From a virus, in IMG/VR virus record IMGVR_UViG_3300027906_002743, positions 1-30,781 of that record: 30,781 bases of DNA; one strand, written 5' to 3'. Made by a program: the position numbers and the translations under genes. The notes beneath the pieces were generated by a model. It saw nothing but the letters and a program-made list of their open reading frames with translations, was not told the DNA's origin and ran no database searches. Below are positions 2,742 through 21,715 of the stretch, piece after piece; the first letter of the stretch is position 1, and each line of letters starts with the position of its first letter.

Positions 2742-3135
2742 GCTGATTAAGTCACTTAAAGGACAAAAAATAACCAAGACTAAACTCCGAGAGGAGATTC
2801 AAAACTCATTATATGATGGAGCCACCGATACCCCTCAAGTGGGTAAGTGGTACTACTTTGAATATGACCCTAAATTTAAAGATCGGATGAAACAATGGGA
2901 TCAATTCCCCTTCATTCTTGTACAAGAGATGAAAAAAGGCAATATACTAGGGGCTAATGTACATTATATGAACGTAAAGTCCCGATTAACTGCGATAAAT
3001 AAGAATAGATTTCCTACTTCTACTCTACATTACTATATCCCGAAAAGAGCAGATGCTATTTTCTTTGAAGTTGAAGAATTAGATGTACCAACAATGAGCC
3101 AAATGCCCGTTGAACAATTCCATAGAAATAAGTAA
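2641..3135 (+). CDS. Conserved T4-like phage protein of unknown function
   Basis: 164 residues from the ATG at 2641, which has GAGG nine bases upstream; a TTG at 2632 is an alternative. The first 40 residues are Ser/Gly/Lys rich and probably disordered. The folded part contains GKWYYFEYDPKFKDRM and FPFILVQEMKKGNILGANVH, a pattern (Y-F-x-YDPK ... FP ... GxNxHY) I associate with an uncharacterised protein seen beside virion genes in large myophages. It overlaps gp4 by about 100 bases and ends two bases before gp48, so a structural or assembly role is likely. No specific function can be assigned. Confidence 0.7.
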   Translation: MPQTQPSGKQRSSTAGTGFGSSKSSPKSNSEFSKLIKSLKGQKITKTKLREEIQNSLYDGATDTPQVGKWYYFEYDPKFKDRMKQWDQFPFILVQEMKKGNILGANVHYMNVKSRLTAINKNRFPTSTLHYYIPKRADAIFFEVEELDVPTMSQMPVEQFHRNK

Positions 3136-4577: not shown

Positions 4578-5191
4578 TGTTACAAGCTTTACCAGATCTA
4601 TACTATAACATAGGAAAATCGGCACTAGATCCTAAGATACTAGCAGCGAAAAATCTATGGCGTAGAGCAGATATTCTTTCTGAATACAAGAATTCAATCA
4701 CATGGTTTAATGAATACCTTATTAAAAACGGTGAACGACCAGAAGATATTGCACTTGATCTATATAAAAACCCATTCTATAACTGGACTCTCTTAGTCAT
4801 TAATGATATAGTAAATATTTACGAACAATGGCCAAGGTCAGTGAAACAGTTGCAAGAGTATGTAACTGACAAGTATCCTAACCCTGAAGATCACAAACAC
4901 TATGAAACAGTTGAAGTTAAATTTGGTACAAAAATAATTGTACCAGCAGGTAAAATAGTACCATCCAACTTCCAAGTTTCATACTGGAATGGAAGTGTTA
5001 CTGTTACTGCTAACCCAGTAGCATCCGTGACCTACTATCAGTACGAAGAGAAACTAAACTCAGCGAAAGAATCAATACAAGTAATTAGACCTTCTGTTAT
5101 AGAAGATTTTGTAGCTGCTTATGAATCTAGACTTTCAAGAGGTAGTAATCTCAGCTTGGGATTTGATGCCTCAGATCTTGACATGTCTTAA
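4577..5191 (+). CDS. 53: gp53-like baseplate wedge protein
   Basis: 204 residues (T4 gp53 is 196). The first 90 residues carry the family pattern: ITWFNEYLIKNGERPEDIA, then YKNPFYNWTLLVINDI and YEQWPRS. The middle contains an insertion (FGTKIIVPAGKIVPSNFQ) that looks like a small beta domain. gp53 is a wedge component needed for wedges to join around the hub. Its last 41 bases overlap the 3' end of the halogenase gene on the opposite strand. Confidence 0.8.
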   Translation: MLQALPDLYYNIGKSALDPKILAAKNLWRRADILSEYKNSITWFNEYLIKNGERPEDIALDLYKNPFYNWTLLVINDIVNIYEQWPRSVKQLQEYVTDKYPNPEDHKHYETVEVKFGTKIIVPAGKIVPSNFQVSYWNGSVTVTANPVASVTYYQYEEKLNSAKESIQVIRPSVIEDFVAAYESRLSRGSNLSLGFDASDLDMS

Positions 5192-6635
5192 ATGCAGTAG
5201 GTAGTTTCTCAACTGCCTCCTCCCATTGTTTATTGATGTTTAACATATTCACAGTAGTATGTCTAGGTCTATTAAGAGGACATATGTTCATACCTGATGC
5301 AACATAGTGTAGTCCTGCTACAAGATTTCTAAAATTACAGTCACTGTAGATCTCTCTACCGTAAGCAAATAATCCATTAAGATACGTACCGTTATTCAAT
5401 AGAGATTCCTCTAAATTATATTCCTTGTTGAAGACATCCTGCCAATATGGGGTGTCTTCTCTTTGTGTAAAGGCATAGTGTATTGCTACAAAATCTGCTG
5501 TCTGATCAAACTGACGACGAATATCTGAATTATAGTATTGCTTCATTATCTGAGATGGTTTTCCACGTCTCAGTGTCTTAACTAGATCTATAAGGTTCTC
5601 ATGTACCATCATAAGACCATTAGATTCTAATGGTTCAACAAATCCAGCAGATAATCCAATAGCAACGACATTACCTACCCAAGTATTTTCGTGCCTACCG
5701 ACACGCATATGAATCTTCTTGAAAGTACACTCATCAGTATCATACTTGTCACTCAAATGCTCAACTAGCTCTTGCTTTGCATCATCATCACTGGTATACT
5801 TTGAAGAATACACATATCCTGTTCCAACTCCACTCCATAGAGGAATATCCCAGACCCATCCATTATCAATGGCAGTACAGTGAGTATATGCATTAAGTTG
5901 CTTCTCTTTGTCTGTATATGGTACATGAGTAGCCCATGCACGATCATTTGGTAGTAAGTGATCAAATGGGACGAAGGGTTCACCACAAAACTCACCAAGC
6001 AGCAAGCTTCTGAATCCAGTACAGTCTATAAAGAGATCTCCTTCTACCTCCGAACCATCGTCTAATACAAGACTATGGAATGTCCTCTCGTCTGTAGTGA
6101 CGAAATTAACCACGTTGCCAGTTATATACTGTGCTTTCTGACAGTATTTCTTCTTTAAATATTGACCAAACTTTACAGCATCGAAATGGTATGCATAATC
6201 ACCATCTGGTGTTAAAGCAGTATTTGGATCTATTTTACCTCTCTCTGAAACCAGAGCGATGTGATTTATATCTTTTGCGTAATCATTGGGACTTTTATCA
6301 CCATACTTCAGTTGATGTGACCACCACACTTCAGGTAGCAGTGGATTTTTTCCAAAGGGGTAATGAAAACTCCCAGAATTTTTTTCCAGAAAATTGGTAA
6401 ACCGAATACTATGTTTGATAGTACCATCGGTCTCTATTAGAAATTCTTTCTCATCTTCTCTTATTCCTACTATATCTACCCAGTCTTGTATCTGTGCTAA
6501 TGTACTCTCTCCTACTCCAGTCATAGGAATATCTGGAGATTCTATGAGAGTAACCTCATAATCAGGAAGACATTGCAAAAAAGTAGTGGCGGTCATCCAT
6601 CCTGCGGAGCCGCCACCAACGATCACTACTTTCAT
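5151..6635 (-). CDS. Flavin-dependent halogenase (tryptophan halogenase family, VirX1-like)
   Basis: 494 residues. N-terminal FAD-binding motif VVIVGGGSAGW (3-13, GxGxxG type), flavin contact VGESTLAQ (41-48), a candidate catalytic lysine K74 in TIKHSIRF, and WVWDIP at 260-265, which fits the halogenase signature WxWxIP. DCTGFRS (204-210) and PLESNGL are further family landmarks. The enzyme would use FADH2, O2 and halide to make HOX and halogenate an aromatic substrate; a characterised cyanophage relative, VirX1, prefers iodide and has broad substrates (recalled). It follows gp32 with a TAATG overlap, so it is probably co-expressed with it. A free-FADH2 source is not encoded next to it. Family is firm; substrate is unknown. 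Confidence 0.88.
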   Translation of the reverse strand: MKVVIVGGGSAGWMTATTFLQCLPDYEVTLIESPDIPMTGVGESTLAQIQDWVDIVGIREDEKEFLIETDGTIKHSIRFTNFLEKNSGSFHYPFGKNPLLPEVWWSHQLKYGDKSPNDYAKDINHIALVSERGKIDPNTALTPDGDYAYHFDAVKFGQYLKKKYCQKAQYITGNVVNFVTTDERTFHSLVLDDGSEVEGDLFIDCTGFRSLLLGEFCGEPFVPFDHLLPNDRAWATHVPYTDKEKQLNAYTHCTAIDNGWVWDIPLWSGVGTGYVYSSKYTSDDDAKQELVEHLSDKYDTDECTFKKIHMRVGRHENTWVGNVVAIGLSAGFVEPLESNGLMMVHENLIDLVKTLRRGKPSQIMKQYYNSDIRRQFDQTADFVAIHYAFTQREDTPYWQDVFNKEYNLEESLLNNGTYLNGLFAYGREIYSDCNFRNLVAGLHYVASGMNICPLNRPRHTTVNMLNINKQWEEAVEKLPTAFKTCQDLRHQIPS

Positions 6636-7528: not shown

Positions 7529-7760
7529 ACGTATTCTCCGTATTTTTGTATTGTGGTATTGGGTGGGAGATTGGATTAATGATATACCAATAAGGAAGGG
7601 GCATTGCTACATTAGTAGATTTTTACCTCCCTGTATAAGACCCGACTGGTAGGTCGATTCTGTGCGAACACAGCGAGCACCACCTCTGTCTCATCACCTT
7701 AACTAGCCTTATGCCAGCAAGTTTATTCAGTCACTCCCGTATCGAGTAGCGAACCCGATA
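7529..7760 (-). promoter_or_regulatory. Structured 5' leader of gp32 mRNA
   Basis: No convincing gene in this 230-base stretch. From the likely start near 7760, the RNA begins with a 7-bp hairpin (7760-7740, loop TTCGCTA). Further hairpins: CTGTG-TTCG-CACAG (7673-7660) and GACC-GGTC around 7657-7640. The last 70 bases before the GGAG are A/C-rich and largely unpaired, apart from a possible TGGTAT/ATACCA pairing. T4 gp32 represses its own mRNA by binding an unstructured stretch next to a folded leader; the same architecture is inferred here. Confidence 0.45.
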
Positions 7761-7763
7761 TAC

Positions 7764-7794
7764 TATTTATAGCACACCCTGAAGGGGTTGTCAA
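7764..7794 (-). promoter_or_regulatory. Promoter for gp32-halogenase: TTGACA-17-TATAAATA
   Basis: Minus strand: TTGACA at 7794-7789, 17-base spacer, TATAAATA at 7771-7764. It satisfies both the host sigma70 consensus and the T4-type late -10 motif. The spacer contains a small inverted repeat (ACCC-CTTCA-GGGT). It lies between the tRNA and the gp32 leader. Confidence 0.7.
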
Positions 7795-7811: not shown

Positions 7812-7901
7812 CTGTAAGGGGTGGAGTCGAACCACCAAGTCCCGCCAGAGCAGAACAGCAGGGAAACAGCCTGCCACGTTTACCAGTTTCGTCACCTTAC
7901 A
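7812..7901 (-). tRNA. Class II tRNA-like gene with anticodon GTT (Asn-type identity, Leu-like body)
   Basis: Minus strand, 90 nt, full cloverleaf by eye: acceptor TGTAAGG/CCTTACA (7 bp, perfect); D arm ACG/CGT with an AAACTGGTAAA loop; anticodon arm GCAGG-CTGTTTC-CCTGC; variable arm GTTCTGC-TCTG-GCGGGAC (7 bp); T arm GGTGG-TTCGACT-CCACC; discriminator G; no encoded CCA. The loop places GTT (Asn) at 34-36. Asn tRNAs are normally class I, but here the variable region is 21 nt and the D arm is Leu-like. U1:A72, G73 and GUU are the usual bacterial Asn identity features. Bases 37-38 are TC where a purine at 37 is usual. It starts eight bases after the synthetase-like gene and is probably cotranscribed with it. 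Confidence 0.8.
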
Positions 7902-7909
7902 TTGAAGCC

Positions 7910-8707
7910 CTATTCAAGGGCTGATATCATACGAGTGATACCGATTCCTCCTCCAGATCTGGGGAAGAAATCAAACTCCAAGAACTTATCAAGTTCATTC
8001 TCGACTCTCTCCTCACCAAATTTTCTATAGAGTAGTGCTGCATACCCACCATCAGAGATAGTGTGGAATGTTTCTCTCATCTGTGCTTTATCAGTACTAC
8101 GTTCAGCAGAACCAATAGTTTCCATACCATTTAGAATCACATCAATCTTACGACTGGTGCCATCGGTATTTCTTGCCATGTTCCAGAATGGTGATGTCCA
8201 CTCAGGGAACTCAGTGATCATACCACGTCCTATAGCAGCTTCATGTCCGTGGTCAAGTTCCTTAACCTTATAGGTATCTGCCCATCCAGCATAAGATTTA
8301 ATACCATCTGTCTCTAACGGCAGACCTAGATGTTCGCAGAGTTCTATCTCCATCGCTTTAAGATCATAGACATCCCCCTTCATTTCAAACTCGAACATAG
8401 GGAAGATAGTCTCGTGTCTACCTGGGACAGGATTAGGTTCTGCCCTATACGACGTTGAGACACAAAAAAACCCTGACTCGTCAGGGTTGGAAAGTAATTC
8501 GTGTTCTAACCACATTTGACCTGTTTGTGGTAGTGGCCAAACATTACCACCGTAATTATATACTGCTACGGTCTCTGGATCTTCACACGCAGCAAGGATG
8601 CTTAAACGATTCTGAGTATGTACCTCAAGAAAACCTTTATCCAAAAAAAATGACCTCATCAGGTCAACTGCATGGGAATATTTTTTAGGATCAATAAGAC
8701 TTGTCAT
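7910..8707 (-). CDS. Class II aminoacyl-tRNA-synthetase-like catalytic core (Asn/Asp type), no anticodon-binding domain
   Basis: 265 residues. Motif 1-like helix MRSFFLDKGFLEV (17-29). Motif 2 SYRAEPNPVPGRH...FEFE (86-108) with Arg88 and Glu90. GMETIGSAER (194-203) matches the AsnRS/AspRS ExxGGxxR-type loop. Motif 3 is GGGIGITR (252-259) with Arg259. LPQTGQMWLEHELL (59-72) corresponds to the AsnRS LxxSGQ... segment. The N-terminal OB-fold anticodon domain of AsnRS/AspRS (about 100 residues or more) is absent. Alternatives are an AsnA-like asparagine synthetase or an EpmA/GluQRS-like modifying ligase. It has its own TATAAATA promoter and ends eight bases before a tRNA gene whose anticodon is GTT, suggesting a dedicated pair. 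Confidence 0.8.
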   Translation of the reverse strand: MTSLIDPKKYSHAVDLMRSFFLDKGFLEVHTQNRLSILAACEDPETVAVYNYGGNVWPLPQTGQMWLEHELLSNPDESGFFCVSTSYRAEPNPVPGRHETIFPMFEFEMKGDVYDLKAMEIELCEHLGLPLETDGIKSYAGWADTYKVKELDHGHEAAIGRGMITEFPEWTSPFWNMARNTDGTSRKIDVILNGMETIGSAERSTDKAQMRETFHTISDGGYAALLYRKFGEERVENELDKFLEFDFFPRSGGGIGITRMISALE

Positions 8708-8726: not shown

Positions 8727-9380
8727 TTATTTATAACAAAAAAGAAAGTCATGCACAAGCTTTTCTGCCTTTTCAGGACCAAACTTGCCTTTTAGATAGC
8801 CTGCAACAGGATCTAACTCCGTCATATACTCATCAAAGCGTTTATATGCAGTCAAATCTTCGCCATCAGGGGTCTCCCACTCGATTAATTTCTTATATTC
8901 TTTTAGATATGTCTTAAACATAGGTAGGTGATCATCTACCTCATCCATGGTACACTTGGCAACATAGATGTTCTCAGAGAAATGATTACCCTTCTCAAAG
9001 AACCTATAGTCCTCCTTCGATACTGGTAGACCAGGTACTGACATCAAGTAATGTTCTACTGGATGCTGGAAGTCAAATACTATAATAACTTTTCCATGAA
9101 AGAATCCCATGAGATCCATGCCAAAGCAAGGAAGATTTCCTGCCCATCCATTTGCACCTGTTTTAGGATAAAGAACATTGTTGTAGATGTGGGATTTTTC
9201 ATCCCAGATGTCAACTTCTCGTGATTTAATAAAATAATCATGGGTGCTGACTTGTGCAGTGAGCTTTGTTCCACCTTTTCCCTCCCATTCACACCATAGT
9301 GGTTGTTTTTCAAAGTCAGGAAACTCTTCCCAGAGAGCATCCTTCCAGTTTTGCCAGAGATTTAATCCCACCATATCCAT
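8727..9380 (-). CDS. pebS: Phycoerythrobilin synthase (ferredoxin-dependent bilin reductase)
   Basis: 217 residues. It follows remembered phage PebS closely: IYNNVLYPKTGA (65-76), LPCFGMDLMGF (83-93), VIIVFDFQHP (98-107), YRFFEKGNHFSENI (125-138) and YMTELDPVAGYLKGKFG (185-201). Asp89 and Asp190 match the two catalytic aspartates of PebS. The enzyme reduces biliverdin IXalpha to 3Z-phycoerythrobilin in two ferredoxin-driven steps. A five-residue insertion (GWAGN) precedes LPCFG. The first ATG (9380) sits directly on an AGG; the ATG at 9374 has AGG at a better distance and may be the true start. Substrate and reductant would come from ho1 and petF near 29-30 kb. PcyA or PebA is less likely. 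Confidence 0.88.
   Translation of the reverse strand: MDMVGLNLWQNWKDALWEEFPDFEKQPLWCEWEGKGGTKLTAQVSTHDYFIKSREVDIWDEKSHIYNNVLYPKTGANGWAGNLPCFGMDLMGFFHGKVIIVFDFQHPVEHYLMSVPGLPVSKEDYRFFEKGNHFSENIYVAKCTMDEVDDHLPMFKTYLKEYKKLIEWETPDGEDLTAYKRFDEYMTELDPVAGYLKGKFGPEKAEKLVHDFLFCYK
8728..8758 (-). promoter_or_regulatory. Promoter for synthetase-like gene and tRNA
   Basis: Minus-strand TATAAATA at 8735-8728, with TTGTGC (weak -35) 17 bases upstream at 8758-8753. The -10 overlaps the stop codon of pebS. Expected start is about 15 bases before the ATG at 8707. Confidence 0.6.
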
Positions 9381-21005: not shown

Positions 21006-21200
21006 TTATTTAGATTGTTCTACGTCATATTCTATCACAATCTTGCTACTTGAGCGATGTACAGAGTTCAATGTTTCGTACTGATGACATGTACCACCCA
21101 AATCTTTAGCAATCTTGTACAATTCCTCGATCAATTCTTCCTTAGAAGGTTTGATCATGCCCTTAATGAAGGGACTGTCACCCTCAGGTCTATAGATCAT
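21006..21200 (-). CDS. Small hypothetical protein
   Basis: 64 residues; helix SKEELIEELYKIAKDLGG (19-36) and a C-terminal strand KIVIEYDVEQSK. An ATG at 21158 (MIKPSKEEL) is an alternative start. ATGA overlap with pyrE. Confidence 0.55.
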   Translation of the reverse strand: MIYRPEGDSPFIKGMIKPSKEELIEELYKIAKDLGGTCHQYETLNSVHRSSSKIVIEYDVEQSK

Positions 21201-21715
21201 GTGAAGTCATCCAGAGTAAAGAGACTGACTAGTTCAAGGTCGGCATCGGTGAATGGATCTTCGCCATTCTCTCTCCTATCTACGATACATACTACCTTAT
21301 TGACCACGTAACCTGCATCACGTAGTACTTTCACTGCCTTAACTGCACTACCACCTGTAGTCACGACATCCTCAAGGAGTGTCACCACTGTTCCAGTAGG
21401 GAGCAGCGGTCCCTCAATCATTGCTTGAGTACCATATCCCTTAGGTTCCTTACGTACTATAAGAGCATCAAGGTTGGGTGATGTGATAGAGACTCCAGTT
21501 GCTAGTGGGTCACCACCTAAGGTCACACCTGCTACAGCATCACCCTCGCAATGAATCAGCATTGCAGGTGCTATAAGTTTAATGCCCTCATTACTGAGAG
21601 CAACAGGTTTACAATTAATGTAGTGCATACTTGTTGCACCACTTGAGAGAATTATGTCTCCGTATCGGTATTGTTCTCCGAGGAGTTCTCTAAGTCTATT
21701 GGTTCCAGTGGCCAT
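21197..21715 (-). CDS. pyrE: Orotate phosphoribosyltransferase
   Basis: 172 residues. PRPP-binding loop VTLLEDVVTTGGSA (111-124), GDIILSSGATSMHYINCKP (19-37) with the OPRT catalytic start, AGVTLGGDPLA and VRKEPKGYGT (87-96) substrate loop. Makes OMP from orotate. Somewhat short but complete in motifs. Confidence 0.9.
   Translation of the reverse strand: MATGTNRLRELLGEQYRYGDIILSSGATSMHYINCKPVALSNEGIKLIAPAMLIHCEGDAVAGVTLGGDPLATGVSITSPNLDALIVRKEPKGYGTQAMIEGPLLPTGTVVTLLEDVVTTGGSAVKAVKVLRDAGYVVNKVVCIVDRRENGEDPFTDADLELVSLFTLDDFT

Follow-up and report, generated by a model that had tools for sequence, protein, structure and literature searches.

A synthetase-like enzyme and an aberrant tRNA kept together in phages: a probable role in or near pyrimidine synthesis

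Phages of two groups carry, side by side, a gene for a minimal class II synthetase-like enzyme and a gene for an aberrant asparagine-type tRNA, and we propose that this pair probably helps build the bases of DNA and RNA by an undescribed route, instead of serving protein synthesis. That the enzyme acts within pyrimidine synthesis or close to it has, in our estimate, a probability of about 0.65; the link of the enzyme to pyrimidine genes, in cells as well as in phages, is well supported by sequence comparison. The pair lies in IMG/VR virus record IMGVR_UViG_3300027906_002743, of which the whole analysed stretch of 30,781 nucleotides is called the window here. An earlier note on the window had considered two roles, the charging of the phage's own tRNA by a minimal synthetase, or an asparagine synthetase A (AsnA)-like or modifying ligase with the tRNA as its partner. 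Our analysis supports that interpretation in part, but neither of the two roles fits best; pyrimidine synthesis had not been considered there.

Results

A synthetase core with an AsnRS-type pocket

7910-8707, minus strand: 265-aa class IIb synthetase core, PHROG 29758, with predicted Asn activation
8582-8587, minus strand: codons of Cys41-Glu42, at the class IIb flipping-loop position
8504-8506, minus strand: codon of Glu68, which aligns with the AsnRS Glu of the LYLE motif, where AspRS has K-Q
8384-8446, minus strand: motif 2, residues 88-108, RAEPNPVPGRHETIFPMFEFE
8099-8101, minus strand: codon of Arg203 (SAER), which aligns with the Asx side-chain Arg of AsnRS/AspRS, where LysRS/EpmA have Glu
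7931-7954, minus strand: motif 3, residues 252-259, GGGIGITR

A Pfam search of the 265-aa protein returned tRNA-synt_2 (PF00152) at 3.6e-14 as the sole family. The full-length AlphaFold model (residues 1-265, pLDDT 91) superposes on the core of human AsnRS, residues 230-528, with Z 26 and 22% identity, and its structural matches are the catalytic cores of AsnRS, AspRS, LysRS, archaeal asparagine synthetase A and EpmA. Because the model covers the AsnRS/AspRS catalytic core only, the enzyme is without an anticodon-binding domain, and the Pfam match together with this whole-model alignment bears out the original description of a class II Asn/Asp-type core with motifs 2 and 3 and no anticodon domain. 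The enzyme stays below the cut-offs of both the AsnRS equivalog model NF003037 (16 bits, cut-off 414 bits) and the EpmA model NF006828 (19.5 bits, cut-off 264 bits).

The binding pocket is uniform across the family. The AsnRS-type pattern Q(S/T)xQxxLE, which contains Glu68, and the Asx Arg203 are present in 137/137 full-length enzymes, as is the Cys followed by Glu or Asp of the flipping loop, while neither the AspRS pattern QSPQxxKQ nor the LysRS/EpmA pocket pattern occurs in any of the 137. The amide readers in AsnRS are Glu and Arg, whereas AspRS has Lys and Arg (PMC7387524). As the AsnRS-type pocket is kept by all 137 enzymes, asparagine would be the likeliest substrate, and we regard it as the likely one. 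An EpmA/LysRS identity was rejected on the same residues, the pocket position being Arg, not Glu, in all 137 enzymes, and on the EpmA model score far below its cut-off. GluQ-RS is a class I enzyme, and this rules it out as a relative.

One alternative holds that the enzyme makes asparagine with ammonia, as does the archaeal asparagine synthetase AS-AR, the pyrimidine linkage then reflecting shared aspartate metabolism and the tRNA being a substrate or a sensor. The AS-AR structures 3rex, 3reu and 3p8t indeed superpose well on the model (Z about 23.4) and have the same core-only architecture; however, a profile search with the enzyme places AsnRS/AspRS (3e-12) far above AS-AR (6e-3; 0.0064), Pfam gave no AsnA family, and the absence of CarAB and PyrB beside a kept pyrDEF in cells, described below, would be left unexplained, so that we find this alternative improbable. 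A plain AsnA identity was rejected on the return of PF00152 only. Of the AsnA-like or modifying ligase with a tRNA partner considered before, the association with the tRNA stands, but the AsnA-like part is weakened by the AsnRS-type Glu in 137/137 enzymes and by the Pfam result.

The enzyme and the tRNA form a conserved unit

7812-7901, minus strand: type II tRNA with anticodon GUU, called tRNA-Asn(GTT) by ARAGORN, with U1:A72, G73, U37 and a Leu-like D arm
7865-7867, minus strand: anticodon G34 U35 U36, with U37 at 7864; all complete phage tRNAs examined are GUU
7839-7856, minus strand: long variable arm of the tRNA, with a 7-bp stem and a 4-nt loop

In the window the tRNA begins 8 nt beyond the enzyme stop, and the ARAGORN call agrees with the tRNA first read there, one with a GTT anticodon, U1:A72 and discriminator G eight bases after the enzyme gene; that this tRNA is of type II and has U at position 37 goes beyond the first description.

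A scan of IMG/VR returned at least 589 relatives of the enzyme. In a first group of 86 sources, made up of the window, two named phages, 80 IMG/VR loci and the genome contigs L086, L087 and L095, the tRNA is present in 85, and the remaining contig ends inside the tRNA; the spacing is 6-12 nt after the stop codon except in L087 (172 nt). A second group of 80 loci, from a search seeded with a divergent member, has the tRNA just downstream in 76. Related phages thus keep the pair side by side and do not separate the two genes at random, at 161/166 loci across two phage groups and within one enzyme clade, in line with what the earlier note had expected of a true pair. The stems of the tRNA are 99.9% paired in the first set, where 20 of the 24 pairs have changed on both sides, and pairing is similar in the second set, which includes 11 ordinary tRNAs. 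The enzymes with a neighbouring tRNA group together in the tree as a single clade (support 100/98), nested in tRNA-less, mostly cellular diversity. The enzyme occurs without an adjacent tRNA in some jumbo phages and on contigs L332, L333 and L338. That enzyme and tRNA form a unit, conserved widely and far beyond chance, is strongly supported.

In the named isolates P-SSM2 and P-SSM7 the pair is annotated as a 'tRNA ligase' plus a tRNA-Asn, and a comparison from 2010 listed the 'tRNA ligase' in only 2/16 cyanophages (PMC3037559). We note that the P-SSM2 record puts tRNA-Asn (PSSM2_199) at 164094-164179, which corresponds to L002 7825-7910 (plus strand), and that the tRNA itself occupies L002 5814-5899, some 2 kb before that place; the annotated coordinates seem out of date.

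The tRNA keeps a predicted asparagine identity

GUU, U1:A72 and G73 are invariant among the complete phage tRNA copies of both groups. U37 is found in 85/85 tRNAs of the first group and 61/75 of the second (146/160 together), C33 in 16/85 of the first group and about 20/160 overall, and the variable arms differ greatly in length; 10 of the 75 tRNAs of the second group have a normal CTGTTAA loop with A37. Judged by these positions, the tRNA keeps its putative Asn charging identity and mostly relaxes the features of decoding. The invariance of GUU is odd beside a core that lacks the anticodon domain, and suggests either charging by the host AsnRS or retained decoding. Among known RNA families, a match to tRNA-Sec was rejected at 22.5 bits, below the gathering threshold of 47 bits.

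These observations bear most directly on the possibility that the core is a minimal AsnRS which charges the phage tRNA so that it reads AAC/AAU codons during infection. The invariant GUU, G73 and U1:A72, the AsnRS-like fold and pocket, and the tight linkage of enzyme and tRNA are what such a translation role would predict; however, U37 in 146/160 and C33 in about 20/160 tRNAs, the Leu-like type II body and the very different lengths of its variable arm argue against it, as do the cellular homologs that lie in pyr operons and are exclusive with PyrB and the occurrence of pyrE in the same cyanophage genomes, both described below. We therefore consider this reading rather unlikely. For the idea that the phage charges its own tRNA with a minimal synthetase, this means that the enzyme-tRNA unit holds up, but the role in translation is weakened by U37 and C33, by the tRNA-less homologs of the pyr operons and by the PyrB exclusion. 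The same tRNA features, charging identity kept and decoding features lost, would suit some other tRNA-linked use of the activated amino acid, in a peptide, a lipid or a tRNA modification, with the pyrimidine linkage being secondary; however, the recurrent neighbours are pyr genes and no recurring acyltransferase partner was seen, and we hold such a use to be very unlikely.

A separate case was observed in jumbo phage LR756508, where a type II tRNA with U1:A72, G73 and a CTTTGGA anticodon loop lies at L160 1501-1602 (plus strand), the synthetase-like gene being elsewhere in the phage.

Surroundings of the pair in the window

A promoter serving both genes had been placed at 8728-8758. No minus-strand site lies there, and the region holds 4 sites against 5.0 expected, so this proposal is not upheld. 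A ferredoxin-dependent bilin reductase-like gene (8727-9380, minus strand) stops 19 nt ahead of the synthetase-like gene, and the two may be transcribed together. A manA RNA (RF01745, 153 bits) lies at 7560-7760 (minus strand), between the tRNA and a gp32-like gene, and in L009 a manA RNA is likewise about 200 nt past the tRNA; genes of nucleotide synthesis are among those reported to lie downstream of manA RNAs (PMC2864571). Between the tRNA and the manA RNA there is a T4-type late-promoter-like sequence, CTATAAATA, at 7764-7772 (minus strand), one of 2 in the window against 0.59 expected. In L040, a match to the glutamine riboswitch (37.6 bits, cut-off 35) at 2891-2939 (plus strand) follows the tRNA by about 360 nt. 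The window also encodes a tryptophan halogenase-like flavoprotein at 5151-6635 (minus strand; PHROG 2928).

Pyrimidine genes accompany the enzyme in phages

21197-21715, minus strand: pyrE, orotate phosphoribosyltransferase (TIGR00336, 124 bits, cut-off 106.8)

Among the phages of the annotated collection, the named cyanophages with a pyrE of the window's type are P-SSM2, P-SSM5 and P-SSM7, the other matches being more distant or lying in fragments without annotation; the synthetase-like gene is found in the same three named cyanophages. The background for this co-occurrence is 514 records with gp23, of which about 463 bear cyanophage names, and two lineages (P-SSM2/5 and P-SSM7) underlie it, with the pyrE sites differing between P-SSM2 and P-SSM7. 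Among IMG/VR loci, pyrE lies within 5 kb of the enzyme gene in L065 and L049. A dihydroorotate dehydrogenase (DHODH)-like gene with the motif N(I/V)SCPN is directly upstream of the enzyme gene in L086 and L261-L265, and upstream of it in L284, L290 and L347. We also observed phage DHODH-like genes with no synthetase-like gene within the examined flanks, in L266, L267, L268, L269 and L270.

Cellular relatives lie in pyr operons in several lineages and mostly exclude PyrB

Relatives of the enzyme were found on 30 genome contigs. L086, L087 and L095 among them are phage-like and carry the tRNA, and in L087 a family B DNA polymerase adjoins the pair; the remaining contigs have no neighbouring tRNA of the phage type. 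In Bacteroidota, Myxococcota and Chlamydiae the neighbours of the cellular gene are dihydroorotate dehydrogenase together with orotate phosphoribosyltransferase/OMP decarboxylase, the chlamydial gene order being enzyme-pyrD-pyrE-pyrF, while pyr neighbours are absent at CPR, DPANN, alphaproteobacterial and Weeksellaceae loci.

PyrB gave no match in 20 of 26 carriers and matched in 14/14 control genomes. In a set of 150 genomes, all from one order, the enzyme gene is present in 7 and PyrB matches 127, distributed as 0/7 carriers versus 127/143 non-carriers (Fisher 8e-7, a value that ignores kinship, as the 7 may share descent). CarB was over the cut-off in 5/27 carriers, 3 of which also have PyrB over the cut-off, and PyrC in 2/27; many of the carrier genomes are incomplete MAGs, which limits these absence counts for PyrB, CarB and PyrC. 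The exceptions that have PyrB are G004, G021, G017 (partial) and G023, and the last of these, a Doudnabacteria MAG, combines PyrB with CarB and a PyrC-like gene. In Bacteroidota carriers, genes resembling dihydroorotase score under the cut-off, so that PyrC may persist there and the product of the enzyme could be N-carbamoyl-aspartate.

This last point enters an alternative in which the enzyme activates aspartate or carbamoyl-aspartate and replaces PyrB and/or PyrC at the expense of ATP, the tRNA being incidental or regulatory. It draws on the same pyr operons and PyrB exclusion, and on the PyrC-like gene kept by several Bacteroidota carriers; however, the amide-reading Glu is of the AsnRS type in 137/137 enzymes and not of the AspRS type, and CarB, the usual source of carbamoyl phosphate, is missing in most carriers. 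We judge it unlikely.

In most cellular carriers, covariance and pattern searches for a partner tRNA returned only ordinary tRNAs, mostly of the Leu type. Orphan genes for tRNA-like RNAs of type II, whose anticodon is GUC (Asp) and whose variable arms are very long, with U1:A72 and G73, were seen at L125 1501-1615 (plus strand) and L124 1501-1615 (minus strand) and in L206 and L151; they often stand in tandem arrays of 2-4, occur in 36/150 Bacteroidota genomes and are not tied to the synthetase-like gene. As the partner in G006, G008, G009 and G121 this tRNA was rejected (4/7 versus 32/143, p=0.06).

Discussion

The textbook account of de novo pyrimidine synthesis has a single route, via carbamoyl phosphate and carbamoyl-aspartate. 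PyrD needs dihydroorotate, and carriers with pyrDEF and without CarAB or PyrB must therefore have another source of it; bacteria in which one synthetase-like gene stands in place of CarAB and PyrB imply a route absent from the literature searched. That literature was open-access only, so our finding no paper that ties an AsnRS-like enzyme to pyrimidine synthesis is a weak absence.

We propose, tentatively and with somewhat less than even confidence, that an Asn-activating core was recruited to pyrimidine synthesis and makes dihydroorotate from asparagine. Asparagine holds all the ring atoms of dihydroorotate but C2, and since asparagine plus CO2 minus water equals dihydroorotate, an enzyme that activates the alpha-carboxyl could close the ring. 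In such a scheme ATP would activate the alpha-carboxyl of Asn, giving an adenylate or an Asn-tRNA ester; CO2 would join the alpha-amine, giving an N-carboxyanhydride-like intermediate; and the side-chain amide nitrogen would attack C2 of this intermediate, the ring opening then yielding dihydroorotate. In cells the enzyme would take the place of CarAB and PyrB, probably also of PyrC, and feed dihydroorotate to PyrD, PyrE and PyrF. In phages the adjacent type II tRNA would be a dedicated Asn carrier, and may hold the activated asparagine. We infer the asparagine substrate, the dihydroorotate product, CO2 as the C2 source and, for the tRNA, both the charging and the role of carrier. The scheme would jointly account for the Asn pocket, the loss of CarAB and PyrB, and the single extra gene.

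Support for the asparagine-to-dihydroorotate scheme comes from the Asn pocket, the pyr operons, the PyrB exclusion, the co-carriage of pyrE and DHODH-like genes in phages, the tRNA identity and the tree. It is weakened by the carriers that keep PyrB, by the incompleteness of MAGs and by the lineages without pyr neighbours, and also by the cellular carriers without an adjacent tRNA, the invariant GUU, the normal loops in 10/75 tRNAs and the tRNA-less phage contigs. That the tRNA is an obligate carrier in this route we think doubtful. We are equally doubtful of the scheme in its fullest form, in which a single enzyme of synthetase origin would take asparagine, borne on a dedicated non-decoding tRNA in phages or kept as its adenylate in cells, add a carbonyl from CO2 and close the ring to dihydroorotate. 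Carbamoyl phosphate, dihydroorotase and aspartate carbamoyltransferase would all be circumvented, and marine phages would carry the enzyme to evade the host's control over nucleotide supply.

Irrespective of these details, a function in pyrimidine synthesis would make sense of the gene that the P-SSM2 and P-SSM7 annotations call simply 'tRNA ligase', and the pair offers a probably non-decoding set of an Asn-type tRNA and its enzyme. If the charged tRNA takes part in phages, this would add to the cases in which a tRNA feeds primary metabolism, such as haem synthesis, for which tRNA-Glu carries glutamate. The proposed likeness is that of a charged tRNA feeding a small-molecule pathway, but the amino acid, the enzyme class and the product are other ones, and the tRNA step in our system is a putative one.

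Compared with CarAB, PyrB and PyrC, the enzyme is proposed for the same place upstream of PyrD, but its fold is unrelated and its proposed substrate is Asn, whereas theirs are Asp and carbamoyl phosphate. With canonical tRNA-Asn the phage tRNA has in common the GUU anticodon, U1:A72 and G73; it differs in having a long variable arm in place of the short loop and a Leu-like D arm, and, unlike the elongator tRNA-Asn with U33 and a purine at 37, it mostly has U37 and sometimes C33. With AsnRS the enzyme shares the core fold (Z 26), motifs 2 and 3, the amide-reading Glu and the Asx Arg, but the phage-type enzyme is without the anticodon-binding domain and scores far under the AsnRS model cut-offs, and its family has a conserved Cys before the flipping-loop Glu, two extra residues there and, in cells, a pyr operon context. 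Lastly, archaeal AS-AR (3p8t/3reu/3rex) and the enzyme are both core-only relatives of AsnRS, and AS-AR is used in metabolism; our enzyme, however, is distant from it by sequence and is linked to pyrimidine genes and, in phages, also to a tRNA.
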